From an uncultured Pleurocapsa sp. (GTDB lineage Bacteria > Cyanobacteriota > Cyanobacteriia > Cyanobacteriales > Xenococcaceae): a stretch of 38,441 bases of DNA. The notes under the pieces were generated by a model, which saw only the letters and a program-made list of their open reading frames with translations, did no database searches and was not told the DNA's origin. This document shows, piece by piece, positions 6,850 through 33,027 of the stretch. The first letter of the stretch is position 1; every line of letters begins with the position of its first letter. Location: NCBI GenBank assembly GCA_937884735.1, contig CAKZYI010000683.1, positions 1-38,441 on the forward strand. The letters are read 5' to 3'. A program made the translations under genes and the position numbers.

Positions 6850-9800
6850 CTACACAGAAGATTCCTGCTGCTGATACAGATAACAATAACGCCCTTTCAA
6901 CGCCATCAATTCTTCGTGAGTTCCTCTTTCCACAATCGAACCCGCATCCATCATAACGATGGTATCGGCGTTTTTGATCGTACCCAAGCGGTGGGTAATA
7001 AAGAATACGGTGCGTCCTTTGAGAGCTTCTTTCAAGTTACGAGATACTTCTTGCTCGGTAGCAAAATCCAAAGCACTGGTTGCTTCATCCAAAACCATCA
7101 TTGCAGGAGCTTGGAGAATAGTACGGGCGATCGCAATAAGCTGTCATTGTCCCCCAGATAGGGCCGAACCCCTTTCCCCTTCCCTGGTGTTGTAGCCATT
7201 AGGTAGAGTCATAATAAAGTCATGAGCCGCAGCAATTTGAGCCGCAGCGATAATCTCTTCTGTAGTTGCGTCAGGATTGGTTAGGGCAATGTTGTCTAAA
7301 ATAGTTCCTTCAAACAACAGAGTTTCTTGAGGCACAACCCCAATTTGACGACGGATGGAGTACAATTCCACGCGGTTGATATCATAACCATCAACTAGGA
7401 TTCTTCCCCCTTCTGGTTCGTAAAGTCGAGATAGAAGTTTGGTCATGGTGCTTTTACCCGCGCCACTTTCTCCCACAATTGCCACAAACGTACCAGGTTC
7501 AAACTCTGTAGTAACATTCTTCAACTGAAGTGGACCACTAGTTTTAAAGCGGAAGGAAAGATTATCGTATTTAACCTTACCTTTAATCGCTGGCATAGGA
7601 ATGTTATTGCGATCGGCTTCTCCTTCTTCAGGATTGTCTACAATATCTGCCAAACGTTCTAGAGATAAAGCAGTTTCTTGGAAGTTTTGCCATAGAGTCG
7701 CCAAACGCATAATAGGCGAAGTTACATAACCCGCAATGATTCTAAAGGCGATCAATTGACCCAAGGTTAGTTTTCCTTCAAGCACCAAGTCTGCACCCAT
7801 CCCAATCAGGATTACTCTAGAAAGCTTATTGAGAAAGTCACTGGCTGATTTAGCTAAAGTAGAGGTAATTACAGTTTTAAAGCCAGTGGAAATATAACGG
7901 GCATAACGCTCTTGCCACTTCCAGCGCGACCGCAATTCAATGTTTTGCGCTTTAACTGTTTGAATACCTGTTAGTACCTCTACCAAATAAGATTGAGTTT
8001 CGGCATTGCGTTCGGCTTTTACCCTCAACTGTCGGCGAATTGTGGGCGAAAAGATTAAAGTCAAGGCAACAAATACAGGAATGATTGCCAAAGACACTGC
8101 GGTTAGCAGCGGGCTGTAGGCGAACATTACAACCACATATATTACCGAGAAAATACAGTCTAAAACTACCGTTAAAGCTGTTCCTGTTAAAAACTGTCTA
8201 ATCTTTTCTAACTCGTTAACACGGGTGGAAATTTCCCCCACTGGTCGCCGCTCAAAATATCGAAGAGGTAATCTTAGTAGATGGTCGATAATCTCCGAAC
8301 CAAGTGATAAATCAATCCTGTTGGTTGTATCCACAAACAAATACGTCCGCAGGGTGGTTAAAAGTGCTTCAAAGATGTTGATTATAATCAGGAAGAAGAC
8401 CAAGTAACCCAGAGTACTAGGACTATTCTGGCTAATTACCTTATCGATAATTACCTGAATCATCAACGGGTTTGCCAATTGGAATAGCTGTACAAAGAAG
8501 GAAGCAACAAATACTTCAATCAGAACCCGCTTGTATTTTTGCAGGGCGGGTAAAAACCAATTTAAACCAAATCTCTCTTGGGGAGTATCTTTTGTTTTCT
8601 TGAGTAAGAGGACTTCTCCCCCTTCGCCCCAAGTTTCGATAAAGTCTTCGGGTTTATAGCGTTTTACCCCAAGTTCGGGGACAGCTATGACTAATTCTGT
8701 TTCCGTCAGTTCGTAAATCAGAGCCAGACCATCTTGCCAAGTTACCAAACAAGGTCCTTCCAAGCGGGTAATTGCCTGGGCGGGAATATTAATCAGTTGG
8801 GGGCTAAGTCCCATTAATTCTGATACTGCACCACACAAGGGCAAAGAAAGGTTAGGAGTCCTTTCTAACTGCTCTTTTAGGACTCGCTTAATTACCTCTT
8901 TGCGGAAAGGCATACCAAAATACTTACTCAGCATTTGGAAACAAGCAACACCAGCATCTAGGGTAGTTTTTCCTGCAAAGAAAGGATAATTTTTCTTCTC
9001 AGATGTAACTTGTTCTTCTTCGCCTTGGAAAGTATATCGATCTCCCAATCCTTCGCTGTCGTCAAAATCAGTTTCATCCAAATCTAAACTGATAATTCCT
9101 GTGGCATCAATTTCTAATAAAGGATCGTCAATGATGGTATTTTTTTCCGAACCATCAAACCAATAGGCATTAGGAATAGAAATCAAACGAGTAGGGCGAT
9201 CGCCATTCACCGTAATAGTTTGACGATCTTTGGTCAATTCTAAACGACTACCCACAGAAAACTCATCAATTGTGCCACCGCCACTGACCAACCAAACCAA
9301 ATTAGGATCTTTTAATGGTCTAGCAATCTCAGAACTTAGCTGATGTTCCCCAGGAGGTAAATAGTAGGCTTCGGCGTGTTCAGTCATCTGATTTGCCAAA
9401 TCTGCTAGTTCCCAATCTCCTTGAGCCTGTTGTTCTAGTTGAATCCCCAATAAATCAAAGATTTCAACTTTAGCTGGCTTAAGCTTATACTGAGCAGCTA
9501 ATTGGGTGTGTTGCTCGATTAAAGACAAAAAATCTTCGTTGTCAAGAGCTAGGCACACCACTTCTGTACTTGCCATGGCAGTTTCACAAGGCACTCCCCT
9601 AGCCAAATTAACCCAGCCGATGATTTGCCCAGGCTTTAGTTTATCTAGGGTAGTGGGCATCTTAGTTCGCTGATCGTAGCCCAGCAGCCTAACCTCTCCT
9701 ACTGAGATAATTGCAACCAGACCCTGCAATATCTCCCGCATGCTCAACACTTTCCCCACTCCAAATCTTAGTGGTTTAAGTTTTGGAGCAATGTCAGCAA

Positions 9801-9882
9801 TCGCTTCAGGAGCAAGTTGATTGAATTGTGGAACAAGAGAAAGAAATTGCTCGACAATCTTGGTAGTGTTGGTATTAGTCAT
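6850..9882 (-). pseudogene. ABC exporter with N-terminal cyclic-nucleotide-binding domain and C39-like domain (type I secretion / HlyB-like), interrupted by an in-frame TGA
   Basis: ORFs 9882..7144 and 7101..6850 share one frame. The junction reads [37 protein letters not shown], so TGA at 7144-7146 sits where Arg of LSGGQRQ is expected. Walker A GESGAGKST and TM domain are present. Confidence 0.8.
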
Positions 9883-17408: not shown

Positions 17409-20400
17409 ATGAATTCGGTTGTTCCATCTTCGGTTGCGAATAAAGAAGATAGCAGCGTGGTCGCTGCTTCTTACTTATTATTGCGCCATAGACAAAAATT
17501 AGTAGAAGATTTATGGGAGTCTGTACTGCGTTCTGAATGTGGTCAGGAAATGCTAGATTTACTGCAAAAAATGCGTTCTCTTTCTTCTGCTGAAGGGCAA
17601 GTAACGGATTCTTTTCCTCAGTCGACCGTCCCCAAATTAATTGAAGAGTTAAATCTCAATGATGCTATTCAAGTAGCCAGAGCATTTGCTCTTTATTTCC
17701 AATTGACTAATATAGTCGAACAACATTACGAAAGCAGAGAGCAAAAACTTTCTCGTCGCGTCACCAATATTGCCCCTGTTTCGCCACCTGCTACTAAAAA
17801 TGGAGCTAGTTCTCTAATCAGGGCGGATCAAGGAAAAGCAATAAATCCTCAACTAGAGCAGTTAGAAGGAAATTGGATAGAACCCAGTATTTCTAGCGAT
17901 AACAAAGCGGGTTTATTCCATTGGCTCTTTCCTTACCTACAGGAGATTAACATGCCTCCTTTGATGCTGCAAAGACTGTTGGATCAGCTAGATATCCGAT
18001 TAGTAATCACAGCCCACCCCACAGAGATAGTACGCCATACAATTAGAAAAAAACAGCGTCGTATCTCCCACATTTTGGAACAGCTAGACCAAGCAGAAGA
18101 AGTGATGCGAGAAATTGGTCTTCCTGAATCTTGGGAGGCTAATGAGGCGACAAGCCAGCTAACCGAAGAAATTAGACTTTGGTGGCGTACCGACGAGCTA
18201 CATCAGTTTAAACCCAAAGTATTAGATGAAGTAGATTATTCACTTCACTATTTTCAAGAAGTATTGTTTGATGTTATTCCTCAACTAGCTACCCGTTTAA
18301 AACAGTCTTTAAATGCCTCTTTCCCTGGTTTAGTAGCACCTACTCATAACTTTTGCTACTTTGGTTCTTGGGTTGGTTCAGATCGCGATGGCAACCCTTT
18401 TGTAACGCCTCAAGTAACCTGGGAAACTGCCTGCTATCAAAGAAGTATTGTCATTGAAAAATATCTCAAATCCATCGATCAACTGCGGGAATTACTGAGT
18501 CTTTCCTTGCATTGGAGCGATGTGCGACAAGAGCTATTAGATTCTTTAGAGCAGGATCAGCAACAAATGCCAGGAATCTATGAGCAACTGGCGATTCGCT
18601 ATCGTCAAGAGCCTTATAGGCTCAAATTAGCTTATATTGCTCAACGGTTAGAAAATACTCTAGAGCGCAATCATGCCTTATCCTCAGTTGCTGGGAGACA
18701 AGCAATATCAGAAATTAATACTGACAATATTTATGCTTCGGGAGCAGAATTTATTGCCGAACTGAAGCTTATGCAGAGTAGTTTGGCTGCTACTAGCCTG
18801 CACTGTCGAGAATTAGACAACTTGATTTGTCAGGCAGAAGTATATGGCTTTACTTTGGTAGAGCTAGATTTTCGTCAAGACTCTTCTCGTCATAGCGATG
18901 CGATCGCCGAAATTACTGCTTACTTACAAGTTTTACCCAAGCCCTACGACGAATTAACAGAGGAAGAAAAAACAGCCTGGCTAATTCAAGAATAGAAAAC
19001 TCGCAGACCCCTCATTCCTGCGGAAATGCCTTTTTCAGAAACGGCTTGCGAAACGATTGAAACTTTCAGGATGTTGCGTTTGTTACAGCAAGAATTTGGG
19101 CAGGGTATCTGCCAGACATACATTATCAGCATGACTAATTTTGTCAGTGATGTGTTGGAAGTTTTATTGCTCTCTCAAGAAGCAGGACTATACGACCCCG
19201 CATCATGTCAAACTACCGTTAGAATAGTGCCTTTATTTGAAACGGTAGAAGATCTCAAACGCGCTCCAGCAGTCATGAAAGAGCTGTTTGAACTTCCTCT
19301 TTATCGTGCAGCTTTAGCAGGAGGATATCGTTATGTATCGGCAAATCAAGATAAAAATGCCCTAGTAGATGATAGTTCTCTGCCGCTAAAACCTAGCGAT
19401 CTTCAAGAAGTTATGTTAGGTTACTCCGATAGTAACAAAGACTCAGGCTTCTTGAGCAGTAACTGGGAGATCCACAAGGCTCAACGAGCATTACAAAAGG
19501 TGGCATCAGAATTTGGCATATCTTTGCGTATTTTCCATGGTCGCGGTGGTTCAGTTGGTCGTGGTGGAGGTCCTGCATACTCGGCGATTTTAGCCCAGCC
19601 AACAGATACAATTAAAGGCAGAATCAAAATTACCGAGCAGGGAGAAGTTTTAGCGTCTAAATACTCCTTACCTGAATTGGCTCTGTATCATTTAGAAACT
19701 ATGACTACGGCTGTAATTCAGTCTAGTTTGCTAGGTAGTGGATTTGATCGCGTTGAGCCTTGGAATCAAATCATGGAAGAATTATCAGCGCGATCGCGTA
19801 TGGTATATAAGGCTCTAATTTACGAGCAGCCAGACTTTGTTGATTTCTTTCATTCGGTAACTCCAGTCGATGTTATTAGTCAACTGCAAATAGGTTCTCG
19901 CCCCTCCAAACGTCCTGGAAAGGGTGCAGCGGGGAAAAAGAAAGACATGAGCAGTTTGCGAGCGATTCCTTGGGTATTTAGCTGGACGCAAAGTCGTTTC
20001 CTCTTACCCGCTTGGTATGGTGTTGGTTCGGCACTACAGGGGTTTTTAGAGCAAGAGCCTGAGAAAAATTTAAATTTACTGCAATATTTTTATGTCAAGT
20101 GGCCGTTTTTTAGAGTTGTCATTTCTAAAGTGGAAATGACCCTGGCTAAAGTCGATCTACAAATAGCCGAACATTATGTTAATGAGCTATCTCAACCAGA
20201 AGATTTAGAACGTTTCCAAAAGCTATTTTCTCAAATTTCTCAAGAGTATTATTTAACCAAGGAATTAATTCTCAAAATCAACGGTCAAAACAAACTTTTA
20301 GATGGAGACCCTGAGCTACAAAGATCTGTACAGTTAAGGAATGGAACCATAGTTCCTTTGGGTTTCTTGCAGGTGGCTTTGATTAAACGTTTGCGCCAAC

Positions 20401-20507
20401 ACAATAAGTCTCAAGTACTTCACTTTCGCTTTAGTAAAGAAGAGTTATTACGAGGAGCTATGTTGACTATCAACGGTATCGCTGCGGGTATGCGTAATAC
20501 AGGTTAA
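17409..20507 (+). pseudogene. ppc: Phosphoenolpyruvate carboxylase, interrupted by an in-frame TAG at 18993-18995
   Basis: ORFs 17409..18995 and 19026..20507 are in the same frame (offset 1617 nt). The junction reads [35 protein letters not shown]. Active-site motifs [32 protein letters not shown] and the C-terminal MRNTG are all intact. Confidence 0.88.
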
Positions 20508-28059: not shown

Positions 28060-29538
28060 CTAGATTTCGGCTTCAACAGCTAATGTCTCCAAGGCAAAAT
28101 CACTAACAATAGAATGCCCTACGGCTGTCGGGTGCAGGGTATCGAAGAAGAAGAATTCTTCAGGATTAGCACCCGCAGTGGGAGTAAATGTTAGAGGATC
28201 TAAGAAAGAATCTGTGACGTTAGTTAAACCAAATTCCTCTGGGTTAGCCACAACATCATCAAATAAACTACCTACGCCCAAAAGGGTTATATTAGCACCA
28301 GTCAAAGAATCTTCTAACTCATCTATAGTAGAATCTAACAGTAAATTGTGAGTGTCCGATAACTGTGACAATTGCTCTGGAGATGCAGGTAGGTTGGGAT
28401 TGTTGGCTTCGGGTAGTAATCCCAAATCTGGCAGATTAAGTACTAGAAAATCGCGCGCCCCTATATCGTAAAGCGACCCTATTTCGCTCTCAATATTGTC
28501 AACTACCTGTTGAGGATCTATATTTCCATCAAAGTAATCATTGCTTCCCGCCCAAAAAACATAAAGAGCATCTTCATCCGCTGCTTGATTAGCCTGTAAA
28601 TGATCTGCAACGAAAAATTCAACCTGAGTTTCTACTCCTGGAACAAAGCTACCTAATTCTCCCGCTCCGCTGGCACCAGTGGTTGCTAAACCATAGCTAA
28701 AGTTTACGCTTTGATTGGTGGTATTACCATTGAAAAAAGGACTAATAACGGGATTTCCATCAATAATAGTAAGGGGACTAAGAATGTCTGAATCTGGACT
28801 AACAAAGGACAATTCCGTAGCAGGGGTTAATTCTAGATTTAAACCTTCTGCTAGATTATCAATCCAAATTTTACCATTAGAAAAACGTCCTTCAAAGAAA
28901 GGTGGACTAGGAGGAATAACGGGAATACCAGCAGCACTGCTGGCATTAAATAGATTACCTGTATCTACCAGGCTATCGCCAAAAACATATATATTACTGA
29001 AAGAATCGGCTTGAGCAGTAGAAAAATCAATCCCTGTTACTGCACCGCTACCAGCCAGATCGATATCCACACTAGCAACATTTTCAATATTAAAATCAAT
29101 CTCTTGGAAACTATTTTCACCTAAGTTGGCAATTTCTACTGTTTCAATTAGGTTGGAGTCTTGATCATAGAATGCGATCGAGCTACCCGACTCATCAATA
29201 TCAAGTAGCCCAATATTATTAACCGTAACTAAATCATCAAAATTAAAACTGATAATTCCTCCTGCTGCATTGTCATCAGGATCTAAACTATCTCCATCTT
29301 CTGAAATAATTAAGACATTACCTAAGTCATCACTGCCAAGGTCAAAGTCTTCACCTGTAACATTGCCCGTGTCAAATAGCATAACGCCAAATTCAGATGA
29401 GGTTGAGATTTCAACGCCATCATATTGATCTGTAATAATATTTCCCGCTGCTAAATTTGAAGCGTCAAAGTCAATTGCAACATCGGAAGTTAATGAGGGA
29501 GATGAGCTATTTAAAGTCATTAGATATTTCTCGAACAA
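28060..29538 (-). CDS. SGNH/GDSL-family lipase/esterase with a beta-rich N-terminal module
   Basis: Block I IYVFGDSLVDTGN, FWAGSNDYFDG, catalytic FDTLHPTAVGH; about 190-aa Asp/Gly-rich N-terminal region. Start may be the internal MTLNSSS. Confidence 0.85.
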   Translation of the reverse strand: MFEKYLMTLNSSSPSLTSDVAIDFDASNLAAGNIITDQYDGVEISTSSEFGVMLFDTGNVTGEDFDLGSDDLGNVLIISEDGDSLDPDDNAAGGIISFNFDDLVTVNNIGLLDIDESGSSIAFYDQDSNLIETVEIANLGENSFQEIDFNIENVASVDIDLAGSGAVTGIDFSTAQADSFSNIYVFGDSLVDTGNLFNASSAAGIPVIPPSPPFFEGRFSNGKIWIDNLAEGLNLELTPATELSFVSPDSDILSPLTIIDGNPVISPFFNGNTTNQSVNFSYGLATTGASGAGELGSFVPGVETQVEFFVADHLQANQAADEDALYVFWAGSNDYFDGNIDPQQVVDNIESEIGSLYDIGARDFLVLNLPDLGLLPEANNPNLPASPEQLSQLSDTHNLLLDSTIDELEDSLTGANITLLGVGSLFDDVVANPEEFGLTNVTDSFLDPLTFTPTAGANPEEFFFFDTLHPTAVGHSIVSDFALETLAVEAEI

Positions 29539-29548
29539 TAGGTTTGTA

Positions 29549-32077
29549 TTAAAAGCCTACAATAACTTGCCACATCAATGCTACTAAAGTAGTAATAGCG
29601 AAATGCTGGGGTAAAAGATATTTGAATGGCTGACGAGCAATCTTTTGAGTTAAGAGAATAGATAGCAACATCCCCGCTATTAAAGTTGCACCCTGCAAAA
29701 AGGCAATCACTGCTGGATGGGCAACTAAGATAGGCAAACTTGCACCATCTAAACCAAAAGTCGCCATTGTGACGGGTAGTATTTTTCCTCCTTCCCCTAA
29801 ACCCAAACGGAGATAGTGGGCTAAGTTACCCGCTAATACCAGAGGTAAATATCCATAGGCTAATTCAATAAACTTGCGGGGTTTGTATTTATTGTTTAGT
29901 TTGCTAATAAATGCGATCGCATTTTGGGCTAAAAAGGGAATTACCGTCGGCAAGATGAGGACGATAATAGATACTAAGGCATGATTGCTAAATCGATCTA
30001 AATGTAAGTTTGAACTCAGCTTAGTTGCTATTTCTGGCAAGCGATGAAGAAAGACAACATCTAACAATAAAAATAGTAGAGCCACTTCATAATTGCGGGG
30101 AGTATGAGTTGTCCATAGTTCAATTCCTGGTGGACGCAGATTGAATTCTACAGATCTATGGGGACAGGCTTTCAAACAAGTCATGCACAATATACAGTCA
30201 CGGTTTTCTGTTAGCTGTGCGGGGTGAGAATAAAGAGGACATCCGTTGGTTTCTTGTCCTTCTCCTTTGGCTATGCCACCCTTATAACATTGATAGGTAG
30301 TGCATTCTGCCGAACATGTACCTTGTTGCGCTCGCAATTCGGTCATCGAAAGTTTGGCAAACAGACCATTCATTCCACCAATGGGACATAGATAGCGACA
30401 CCAAAAACGACGCTCAAAAATAGCAGAAAATATCATTGCTCCCGCAGTGATTAATAATAGCAAGCAAGCAGAAAGATAAGCGGTATTTTCCAAATTCCAC
30501 AACTCCTCCCACAAGAGAATTAGGGCAAATAAACCAAATAAAAACCAACCTCCCCAATGCTCAGCAGAGTTTCTTGGCCATCTTTTAAGCTGTCTGGGAA
30601 ATAAAATTAGAGATAGTTTTTGGGTAATTTCGCCATAAATCATAAAAGGACATACTGCACACCACAATCGACCCACAAAAGGAAAGGAAATTAGAATTGC
30701 AGGCCACCACCAAGCCCAAAATAAATTGAGTGCAAAGTTTGATTCGCGGGTTTGGGGCGCAATAAATAGAACAAAAACTATAAAAGCAAAAAATGTCAGG
30801 GTAAAACCATAATTTATCTTGTCAGGAAACCAGTCACTCCGTAGAAAATAGCGCAGTCGGGGATATTTATTTAATAAATTTAAACGATACTGTTTCTTTT
30901 TACTTTGACCCTGCCAAACCACCTCTTCTGTAATATCATCACATCCCTGTAGCTGAGTTAAAGCTCGTTCGACAATACTTTCTAATTCTCTTAGGTTATT
31001 AGGAAAATCATAAGACTGAAGATTTCTAATTGCTTCAGGAGTAATGTTAGTTTTCTGGAGACATTTGTTACGTCCAATTAGATTTAAATAATAGTTAATT
31101 TGCTCATCTATATCGGCTTTTCTAACTCTCAAAGGAGGAACTTTAATTAAATTCTCTACGACACAATCGATCGCAGGATTAGTTTGCTCAGAAATGGCAA
31201 TAATTCTGGCTTCAGATATTTTAGTTTTGGGTACTTTTCCCCCAGGACGCATTACAGGAGTATATTTATTTGTTTTAATTAAAGTTGCGATCGCATCTAT
31301 CAATTCTGTGGGCAATAGATGAATATTATTTAAAACTAAAGTGCCTTCCCCCAAGCTAGCAATTAATCCAGGTTTGCCACCGCTACGACCAAACAATTCT
31401 GCCCCACTTGTTTGTAATTTAGCGCAGTCTACTTGAATAATTGGTTGCCGACGATATGCCGAGCCAAAATGAATTAATGCAGCCAGGTTATCTTTTTCCA
31501 ATCCTGGTTCGCCAAATAATAAGACCGATTCTCTAGTAGTGGAAGCCTGTTTTACTTGCGATCGCAATCTTGTTGCGTAGCGACTTTTTCCAATTACTCC
31601 TCGTTTTGCTTTACTAACCAAATATGGTCTAAGAATTGTTTGCCTTTCTTGTTCAAACTCTAATTTATCTGACAATTCTTTAACTTCGTCTGCTAATTCT
31701 TGAGCAAAAGATTGAGCTATTTCTGGATATTGCTTAAGTAACTCTTTGACTTTAAAACTATCAACAAACCATAGCTTTGTTTCAGTAATAGTCTTAACCG
31801 TATATTGAGCCTGTTTGTCTAGTAATAAAGCATATAAATTTAGTACCGTCCCAGAAAGTAAGCTACTTTGACTAGACTGAGATTTACTATCACAAGACAA
31901 CTTACCTGATTGAATAACATATAAACTATCTGGTTTATCATCTTCAGTAATAATAGTTTTGTTTGCTGCAATAGTTTTTTCCGATAACGCAGATGCGATC
32001 GCATTTAATATTTCTGTTGATAAATTACCCAAGCAGGTTTTTTGCTGTAGAAAAGCTAATGTGTCAGCAAGATTCAT
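29549..32077 (-). CDS. Fusion: cNMP-binding domain, degenerate sigma54-activator-like AAA domain, NapH/NosR-like membrane 4Fe-4S module
   Basis: cNMP-like DSLYVIQSGKL; AAA-like ESVLLFGEPGLEKDNLA...ELFGR...GEGTLVLNNIHLLP...LRELESIVERAL; then TM helices with WCAVCPFMIYGE, WCRYLCPIGG and CILCMTCLKACPH. Confidence 0.85.
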   Translation of the reverse strand: MNLADTLAFLQQKTCLGNLSTEILNAIASALSEKTIAANKTIITEDDKPDSLYVIQSGKLSCDSKSQSSQSSLLSGTVLNLYALLLDKQAQYTVKTITETKLWFVDSFKVKELLKQYPEIAQSFAQELADEVKELSDKLEFEQERQTILRPYLVSKAKRGVIGKSRYATRLRSQVKQASTTRESVLLFGEPGLEKDNLAALIHFGSAYRRQPIIQVDCAKLQTSGAELFGRSGGKPGLIASLGEGTLVLNNIHLLPTELIDAIATLIKTNKYTPVMRPGGKVPKTKISEARIIAISEQTNPAIDCVVENLIKVPPLRVRKADIDEQINYYLNLIGRNKCLQKTNITPEAIRNLQSYDFPNNLRELESIVERALTQLQGCDDITEEVVWQGQSKKKQYRLNLLNKYPRLRYFLRSDWFPDKINYGFTLTFFAFIVFVLFIAPQTRESNFALNLFWAWWWPAILISFPFVGRLWCAVCPFMIYGEITQKLSLILFPRQLKRWPRNSAEHWGGWFLFGLFALILLWEELWNLENTAYLSACLLLLITAGAMIFSAIFERRFWCRYLCPIGGMNGLFAKLSMTELRAQQGTCSAECTTYQCYKGGIAKGEGQETNGCPLYSHPAQLTENRDCILCMTCLKACPHRSVEFNLRPPGIELWTTHTPRNYEVALLFLLLDVVFLHRLPEIATKLSSNLHLDRFSNHALVSIIVLILPTVIPFLAQNAIAFISKLNNKYKPRKFIELAYGYLPLVLAGNLAHYLRLGLGEGGKILPVTMATFGLDGASLPILVAHPAVIAFLQGATLIAGMLLSILLTQKIARQPFKYLLPQHFAITTLVALMWQVIVGF

Positions 32078-32395: not shown

Positions 32396-32626
32396 ATGAA
32401 CACGTCTTTACATTTACCAGATGACGTAGCCAAAAGACTTGACGCGTACATCTCTCAAAATAAAGAAAAAATAAGCAGAAACAAAATAATAGTTCGCGCC
32501 ATAGAAGAAATGCTCGAAAGAAATAAACCTAAATCACAATGGAGTGACGAAGTTCTTAACTGGAAGGGAGAACCAGGTTTAGAGTTAGACAGAGAAAGCC
32601 AAGATTGGGGGGACTTTTCATTTTGA
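32396..32626 (+). CDS. Antitoxin, ribbon-helix-helix (VapB-like)
   Basis: 76 aa, NTSLHLPDDVAKRLDAYISQNKEKISRNKIIVRAIEEMLER; overlaps the downstream PIN toxin. Confidence 0.85.
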   Translation: MNTSLHLPDDVAKRLDAYISQNKEKISRNKIIVRAIEEMLERNKPKSQWSDEVLNWKGEPGLELDRESQDWGDFSF

Positions 32627-33027
32627 AATATCTTTTAGACACGAATACTCTTTCTGATTATCTCAAAGGAGATAAATCTGTAATTAAAAACCTCCACTAT
32701 AATTCTCCTGACGATCTAGCTATATCAAGTATTACTAAGTGGGAAATAGCTTATGGTCTTCAAAAAAAGCCTAGCCTAAAAAAAAAGTACGCGAAGCAAT
32801 TACATGAAATTTATACTCTTACTAATGATTTACCGTTTGATTCTTCAATAGCCCATACAGCAGGTTATGTCAGAAATAATTTAAGACTGGCTGGTACTCC
32901 TATCGGGATTCCCGACGTGCTTATTGCTTCCACTGCTTTATTTTTTGACTTAACAGTCATCACAAGCAACACCAAACATTTTAAACAAATAAAAGAACTT
33001 AACCTTATAAATTGGAGAAAGGATTGA
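32623..33027 (+). CDS. PIN-domain toxin (VapC-like)
   Basis: KYLLDTNTLSDYLKGD...ISSITKWEIAYGL...GIPDVLIASTALFFDLTVITSNTKHF. TTG start overlaps the antitoxin TGA (TTGA). Confidence 0.9.
   Translation: MKYLLDTNTLSDYLKGDKSVIKNLHYNSPDDLAISSITKWEIAYGLQKKPSLKKKYAKQLHEIYTLTNDLPFDSSIAHTAGYVRNNLRLAGTPIGIPDVLIASTALFFDLTVITSNTKHFKQIKELNLINWRKD

Follow-up and report, generated by a model that had tools for sequence, protein, structure and literature searches.

A conserved cyanobacterial protein annotated as a nitrogen regulator joins an NtrC-type AAA pseudo-ATPase to a putative NapH/NosR-type membrane Fe-S module

Membrane proteins of the NapH/MauN (TIGR02163), NosR, and RdhC type share a module of four transmembrane helices (TM1-4) that carries two C-x(2,3)-C-P motifs, and NapH and NosR additionally possess two 4Fe-4S motifs. 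The transmembrane segments of NapH have been proposed to be its quinol-oxidizing part, and the first Cys motif of NapH is needed for electron transfer (PMC5928378). NosR, which bears the same kind of Cys-Pro membrane motifs, has an activation role, and both NosR and RdhC were first taken for transcription regulators (PMC5928378). Here, a cyanobacterial protein is described that carries such a membrane module behind two domains derived from signaling families. The gene was recognized in a stretch of 38,441 nucleotides from an uncultured Pleurocapsa sp. (contig CAKZYI010000683.1; hereafter, the window), where a single uninterrupted open reading frame (ORF) of 842 amino acids on the minus strand comprises a domain of cNMP fold, an AAA domain of NtrC type with its lid, and a membrane module of nine predicted helices that carries 12 cysteines. 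Its features are as follows.

29549-32077, minus strand: whole gene, 842 aa; ATG at 32077, stop at 29551-29549; full length kept in relatives
31718-32065, minus strand: cNMP-binding fold, residues 5-120, phosphate-binding cassette without its Glu and Arg (Pfam PF00027, alignment to PKA regulatory subunits, column counts)
31607-31717, minus strand: long connecting helix, residues 121-157 (AlphaFold helix 119-152; start point of truncated subfamily-A homologs)
31130-31606, minus strand: NtrC-type AAA domain, putative pseudo-ATPase, residues 158-316 (Pfam PF00158; Foldseek to NtrX, NtrC1, FlrC, and VpsR)
31490-31513, minus strand: Walker A, GEPGLEKD, residues 189-196 (Lys195 invariant, sixth-position Gly replaced by Glu)
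31361-31405, minus strand: L1 region, GAELFGRSGGKPGLI, residues 225-239, site of the GAFTGA loop deletion (eight-residue gap relative to PspF)
31325-31342, minus strand: Walker B, TLVLNN, residues 246-251 (catalytic DE replaced by NN)
30902-31129, minus strand: AAA lid, residues 317-392 (Pfam PF25601)
30320-30892, minus strand: membrane core of NapH/NosR type, TM1-4 with two C-x(2,3)-C-P motifs, residues 396-586 (TIGR02163, topology)
30647-30664, minus strand: WCAVCP motif, residues 472-477 (Cys invariant in 169/169 homologs and present in stand-alone homologs)
30383-30403, minus strand: WCRYLCP motif, residues 559-565 (Cys invariant in 169/169 homologs and present in stand-alone homologs)
30128-30319, minus strand: predicted cytosolic Fe-S segment, residues 587-650 (eight Cys invariant in 169/169 homologs; about 90% identity within subfamily A)
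29552-30127, minus strand: predicted C-terminal TM5-9, residues 651-842 (hydropathy, positive-inside count, models)

The original prediction, made from the letters of the window, proposed that these domains are genuinely fused, and both the domain boundaries and the distribution of the protein bear this out. A Pfam scan located cNMP_binding at residues 34-117 (E 7e-11), Sigma54_activat at 162-296 (E 2e-12), AAA_lid_14 at 317-378 (E 5e-11), and Fer4_5 (E 1e-8), along with a Fer4 match under its cut-off. Against NCBIfam, the AAA part matched many sigma54 activators and the membrane part matched NapH/MauN, all far under the cut-offs. Matches to the protein were found in 58 of 60 relatives, the strong ones mostly full length and 58-85% identical, and the fusion recurs in 62 of 244 genomes sampled across the phylum. 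Relatives are also encoded on 427 contigs of a named genome collection, the best 80 of which are all cyanobacterial. The draft assembly behind the window runs to 943 contigs, so that the ORF might be suspected of being a decaying pseudogene or a chimera created during assembly; this reading is, however, ruled out for practical purposes by the homologs, given that the identical full-length architecture occurs in dozens of independent genomes, including several single-contig chromosomes, and that conservation is strong along the whole protein. The family is real and conserved, and it is mislabeled. No characterized homolog was found in the open-access literature.

Several other features of the window were noted. 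A likely toxin-antitoxin pair (32398-33027, plus strand), consisting of a small ORF that may encode the antitoxin and a PIN-domain protein, lies directly upstream of the 842-aa gene on the other strand and is preceded by a short ggtatgtcat repeat. Downstream by 10 bp, on the same strand as the gene, is a GDSL-type lipase/esterase (28060-29538, minus strand), followed by a cysteine desulfurase-like gene; neither is conserved beside the gene in relatives. A second cNMP-fold fusion, an ABC transporter that carries a C39 peptidase and has a cNMP-binding fold at its N terminus, is encoded at 7144-9882 (minus strand). Finally, a single in-frame stop (about 18993-18995) splits phosphoenolpyruvate carboxylase (17409-20507, plus strand) into two ORFs of the same frame (matching profile positions 1-451 and 464-919), which reflects either a nonsense mutation or a sequencing error in the draft genome.

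The Fe-S segment of the membrane module is the best conserved part of the protein. Mean identity within the subfamily to which the window protein belongs (subfamily A) climbs along the chain from 47% in the cNMP domain, the least conserved part, to 64% in the AAA domain, 82% in the transmembrane core, and 90% in the Fe-S segment. The two Cys-Pro motifs on the four-helix module, W-C473-AV-C476-P (CX2CP) and W-C560-RYL-C564-P (CX3CP), and the two Cys clusters of the Fe-S segment, C588-x3-C592-x4-C597-x15-C613-P and C628-x2-C631-x2-C634-x3-C638-P, are as originally described, and all 12 cysteines are invariant in the 169 homologs of subfamilies A, B, and C combined. The second cluster is a canonical 4Fe-4S motif, and the first has four invariant Cys at unusual spacing. 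Alignment-averaged hydropathy, model helices, and positive-inside counts together predict nine helices with the N terminus inside; Lys plus Arg average 4.4, 6.2, 11.8, 3.6, and 2.0 in the inside loops and 1.4, 0.0, 0.4, 0.9, and 0.1 in the outside loops. This strict positive-inside pattern places both Cys-Pro motifs, the Fe-S segment, and the AAA domain on the predicted cytosolic side. No histidine within a helix is conserved across A, B, and C, and ligation of haem by conserved transmembrane histidines was therefore rejected.

Comparison with described families agrees with the expectation that a module of the NapH/NosR kind is joined to the AAA domain, since the closest named family is NapH/MauN (TIGR02163; E 4e-14), at 52.8 bits relative to a cut-off of 213, and the NapH/MauN, NapH, and NosR models match the membrane part only. 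By analogy, quinol-linked electron transfer is likely shared with NapH, NosR, and RdhC. Set against NapH/MauN, NosR, and RdhC, the Pleurocapsa protein differs in having CX2CP as its first Cys-Pro motif, the unusual first Fe-S motif, five extra C-terminal helices, and the N-terminal AAA and cNMP-fold domains; the FMN-binding domain of NosR and RdhC was not detected in the Pfam scan of the 842-aa protein. AlphaFold models the helices with fair confidence and the Fe-S segment with very low confidence (pLDDT of about 30). A fold search of the PDB with this weak model of the membrane module returned no significant relative (best E 2.3), and a profile search of the PDB returned ferredoxin-like stretches only. 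Homologous membrane modules also exist as stand-alone proteins in Deinococcus and haloarchaea, a distribution outside the Cyanobacteria that derives from plasmid records only. These uncharacterized 4Fe-4S membrane proteins (e.g., Deinococcus ficus WP_027463891 and haloarchaeal WP_049954990) have the same membrane layout at 26-31% identity and lack the AAA and cNMP domains; cysteines occupy the positions of both clusters in the D. ficus protein, whereas part of the Fe-S cysteines is missing from the haloarchaeal versions.

The AAA domain departs from sigma54 activators most decisively in Walker B, the GAFTGA loop, the arginine fingers, and the HTH (helix-turn-helix). Its fold and lid are of the bEBP kind (Pfam, Foldseek), with VpsR as the best PDB sequence match and NtrX as the best fold match. 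The original description of Walker A as degraded was overstated: GEPGLEKD misses the consensus GxxxxGK[D/E/S/T] at its sixth position only, where Glu replaces Gly, because the residue after the Walker A Lys is normally Asp or Glu in sigma54 activators (PMC7175178), so that the motif is nearly intact for an NtrC-type protein. The sequence GEPGLEKD occurs in 102 of 128 subfamily-A proteins and GEPGLGKD in 11 of 128, and the sixth-position Gly is retained in all scored proteins of subfamily C. The change of the catalytic DE of Walker B to NN, found at the two positions in 126/128 and 128/128 subfamily-A proteins, is predicted to be the stronger ATPase lesion. ATP binding by the subfamily-A domain is accordingly graded as doubtful from its sequence, and ATP hydrolysis as very unlikely. 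No GAFTGA-like motif is present in any of 173 aligned homologs, no conserved Arg pair occurs in the region aligned to the arginine fingers of PspF, and the domain scan gave no match to an HTH, the chain passing from the lid directly into membrane helices. Sigma54 itself (PF04552) was above cut-off in 0 of 60 relatives and was not found in the source assembly, while the same profile detected it in the positive controls Escherichia coli, Bacillus subtilis, and Caulobacter. The AAA module thus cannot serve as a sigma54 activator, as had been proposed on the grounds of the degraded Walker A, of the missing GAFTGA loop and HTH, and of the lack of sigma54 in Cyanobacteria, because it is without GAFTGA, Walker B acids, arginine fingers, and HTH in organisms where no sigma54 was found.

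This leaves the question of whether the protein could still regulate transcription as an unconventional bEBP working with sigma70, as its database name NtrX might imply. Some bEBPs that lack GAFTGA do act on sigma70 promoters, and a comparable deletion of eight L1 residues is present in Caulobacter NtrC (PMC10274813); moreover, VpsR is the best solved sequence match. The AAA fold, the lid, and the deleted L1 loop are indeed common to VpsR, Caulobacter NtrC, and, by fold match, NtrX. Unlike these, the Pleurocapsa protein has no receiver domain and no HTH, carries NN in Walker B, and is attached to a membrane Fe-S module, with the lid running straight into nine membrane helices, and a role as transcription regulator is considered very improbable. 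Nor does the domain appear to be decaying. Lys195, Asp196, and both residues of the NN pair are 98-100% conserved, several positions of the pseudo-site are retained at 95-100%, and no full-length cyanobacterial member that was read lacks the AAA domain. The pseudo-active site is therefore selected for, under strong purifying selection, which indicates that the AAA domain does something.

A less constrained picture emerges for the N-terminal cNMP fold. The beta-roll typical of CRP/FNR-type proteins is present (PF00027), but alignment with PKA regulatory subunits places L81 at the Glu and A90 at the Arg of the phosphate-binding cassette. Within subfamily A, the Glu column is Leu in 121 of about 125 proteins and the Arg column is most commonly Thr, Ala, or Val, and both columns are Tyr in subfamily C. 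Canonical binding of cAMP or cGMP is unlikely because of these substitutions. The fold is absent from all of subfamily B and from single members of A and C, which, as the tree is read, suggests several separate losses; the long connecting helix is retained where subfamily A loses it. The proposal that a cyclic nucleotide gates the protein consequently finds no support.

The tree of the membrane module fully supports subfamilies B (25 rows) and C (16 rows), and A is not one resolved clade. Subfamily A usually occurs as one copy per genome; two genomes have a second copy, and in each pair one copy has diverged further (55-58% identical to the window protein). Subfamily B, without the cNMP fold, occurs in one picocyanobacterial family, in 60 of 121 genomes. 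Subfamily C (e.g., BAZ78296.1 and WP_281009908.1) has 38-40% identity to the window protein, the same three-part architecture, and the same 12 Cys, and it differs in having an intact GxGKT P-loop, with Walker B mostly D-N, and in residing in sulfide/low-oxygen gene islands; two of its genes are plasmid-borne. At 10 of 16 C loci, a cysK gene in the same orientation lies 18-538 bp downstream. Among the other neighbors, assigned by Pfam, annotation, or inspection of the ORF sequence, are SQR-type flavoproteins, metallo-beta-lactamase-fold proteins (possibly persulfide dioxygenases), ArsR regulators, cytochrome bd, a CP43-like protein, psbA, a second Rieske protein, DPOR subunits, and Hdr-type proteins. 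Together with cysK, the subfamily-C gene forms a recurrent sulfide/low-oxygen cassette at six loci, sometimes on plasmids and in some genomes with psbA, Rieske, or cytochrome bd genes close by. No conserved operon was found for subfamily A among 101 loci; LtrA-like (14/101) and TrkA-like (12/101) genes lie downstream, mostly in Nostocales, and cysK was near the A gene in 2 of 80 loci without being adjacent. None was found for subfamily B either, where GC-rich loci with many shadow ORFs make the neighborhood table noisy.

Synteny connects the family to a named gene of a model strain. In a relative genome (G119), the A gene precedes scpA and ffh on its strand, with pdxH on the opposite strand, and in Synechocystis PCC 6803 Ffh is slr1531 and PdxH is sll1440 (PMC3479031). 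The subfamily-A ortholog in PCC 6803 should therefore, from synteny and gene numbering, be slr1529, annotated as NtrX, a name also borne by a plasmid-encoded subfamily-C paralog. Beyond the annotation of this gene as a "nitrogen assimilation regulatory protein", a knockout and expression measurements have been published for it, and no biochemistry was found. Its mRNA changes by -0.74 (log2) after 3 h and -1.17 after 12 h of iron depletion (PMC3516471) and drops to 0.29 under 3 uM Cu, where it is listed amid many general stress repressions (PMC4182526). The slr1529 knockout is not one of four growth-defect mutants, and at 72 h it belongs to the six mutants whose metabolites changed most (PMC5318462). 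As for the nitrogen role, no NtcA site (GTA-N8-TAC) lies upstream of the Pleurocapsa gene, and control by NtcA was rejected for this reason.

What might such a protein do? The favored reading, to which we give about an even chance, is a cytosol-facing membrane electron-transfer protein of NapH/NosR type with a conserved pseudo-regulatory N terminus. Two 4Fe-4S clusters would exchange electrons with the quinone pool of the membrane on one side and with a soluble partner in the cytosol on the other, TM1-4 and the C-x(2,3)-C-P motifs forming the quinone side, as proposed for NapH. The AAA pseudo-ATPase, whether or not a cNMP fold precedes it, may be an oligomerization, docking, or allosteric module that sets access of the partner, possibly binding nucleotide without hydrolysis. 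Subfamily C, beside cysK, SQR, cytochrome bd, Rieske, DPOR, or Hdr genes, would play the same role under sulfidic or low-oxygen conditions. Speaking for electron transfer are the 12 invariant Cys, the identity peak in the Fe-S part, the predicted cytosolic Cys motifs, the NapH/NosR arrangement of Cys-Pro and 4Fe-4S motifs, the stand-alone homologs, the eroded AAA sites, the losses of the cNMP fold, and the neighbors of subfamily C. Speaking against it are the odd spacing of the first cluster, the poorly modeled Fe-S segment, the lack of a PDB match, a score far under the NapH cut-off, and the lack of a conserved operon partner for A. In a fuller and rather unlikely form, the family would represent an unrecognized cyanobacterial membrane oxidoreductase that connects the plastoquinone pool with a soluble low-potential carrier such as ferredoxin, gated by a nucleotide-binding, non-hydrolyzing bEBP-derived pseudo-ATPase, with the C paralog acting likewise in sulfide/low-oxygen metabolism.

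The high conservation would equally suit a sensor, in which the Fe-S clusters or Cys motifs report the redox state of quinone or ferredoxin and the pseudo-AAA and cNMP domains signal to a soluble partner, bulk electron flux not being its task. Both N-terminal domains derive from signaling families, the AAA pseudo-site is almost fully kept, the A gene has no conserved operon partner, as a general sensor would show, and the slr1529 knockout grows normally with a late metabolite shift. Yet Pfam and NCBIfam scans found no output domain (HTH, kinase, or cyclase), membrane modules without the N terminus exist in other phyla, and the neighbors of subfamily C are metabolic electron-transfer genes; redox sensing is regarded as a tentative possibility. 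Electron transfer is favored as the core function because of the domain conservation and the stand-alone homologs, although the sequence alone does not decide between the two. The earlier proposal of an AAA domain regulating membrane electron transfer or redox sensing consequently survives as to the AAA domain on a NapH/NosR-kind module with a selected pseudo-site, and finds no support as to gating by a cyclic nucleotide. Reduction of a metal or disulfide during assembly of photosynthetic or respiratory complexes, in the manner of CcoG or of NosR activation, would fit the NosR-kind Cys-Pro motifs, the responses of slr1529 to copper and early iron depletion, and the psbA, petC, or cyd genes beside subfamily C in some genomes. 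Such a maturation reductase is nevertheless improbable, as no consistent client gene and no FMN domain were found and the copper response is one of many general stress repressions.

Taken together, a gene conserved in many Cyanobacteria has been regarded as a transcription regulator for nitrogen, whereas its sequence indicates a membrane Fe-S protein. A sigma54-activator AAA domain has been recruited to a protein that probably transfers electrons, and this in organisms that yielded no sigma54; the subfamily-C paralog marks sulfide/low-oxygen gene islands. With an ortholog by synteny in the model strain Synechocystis, for which a knockout has been published, the role of the family is testable at once.
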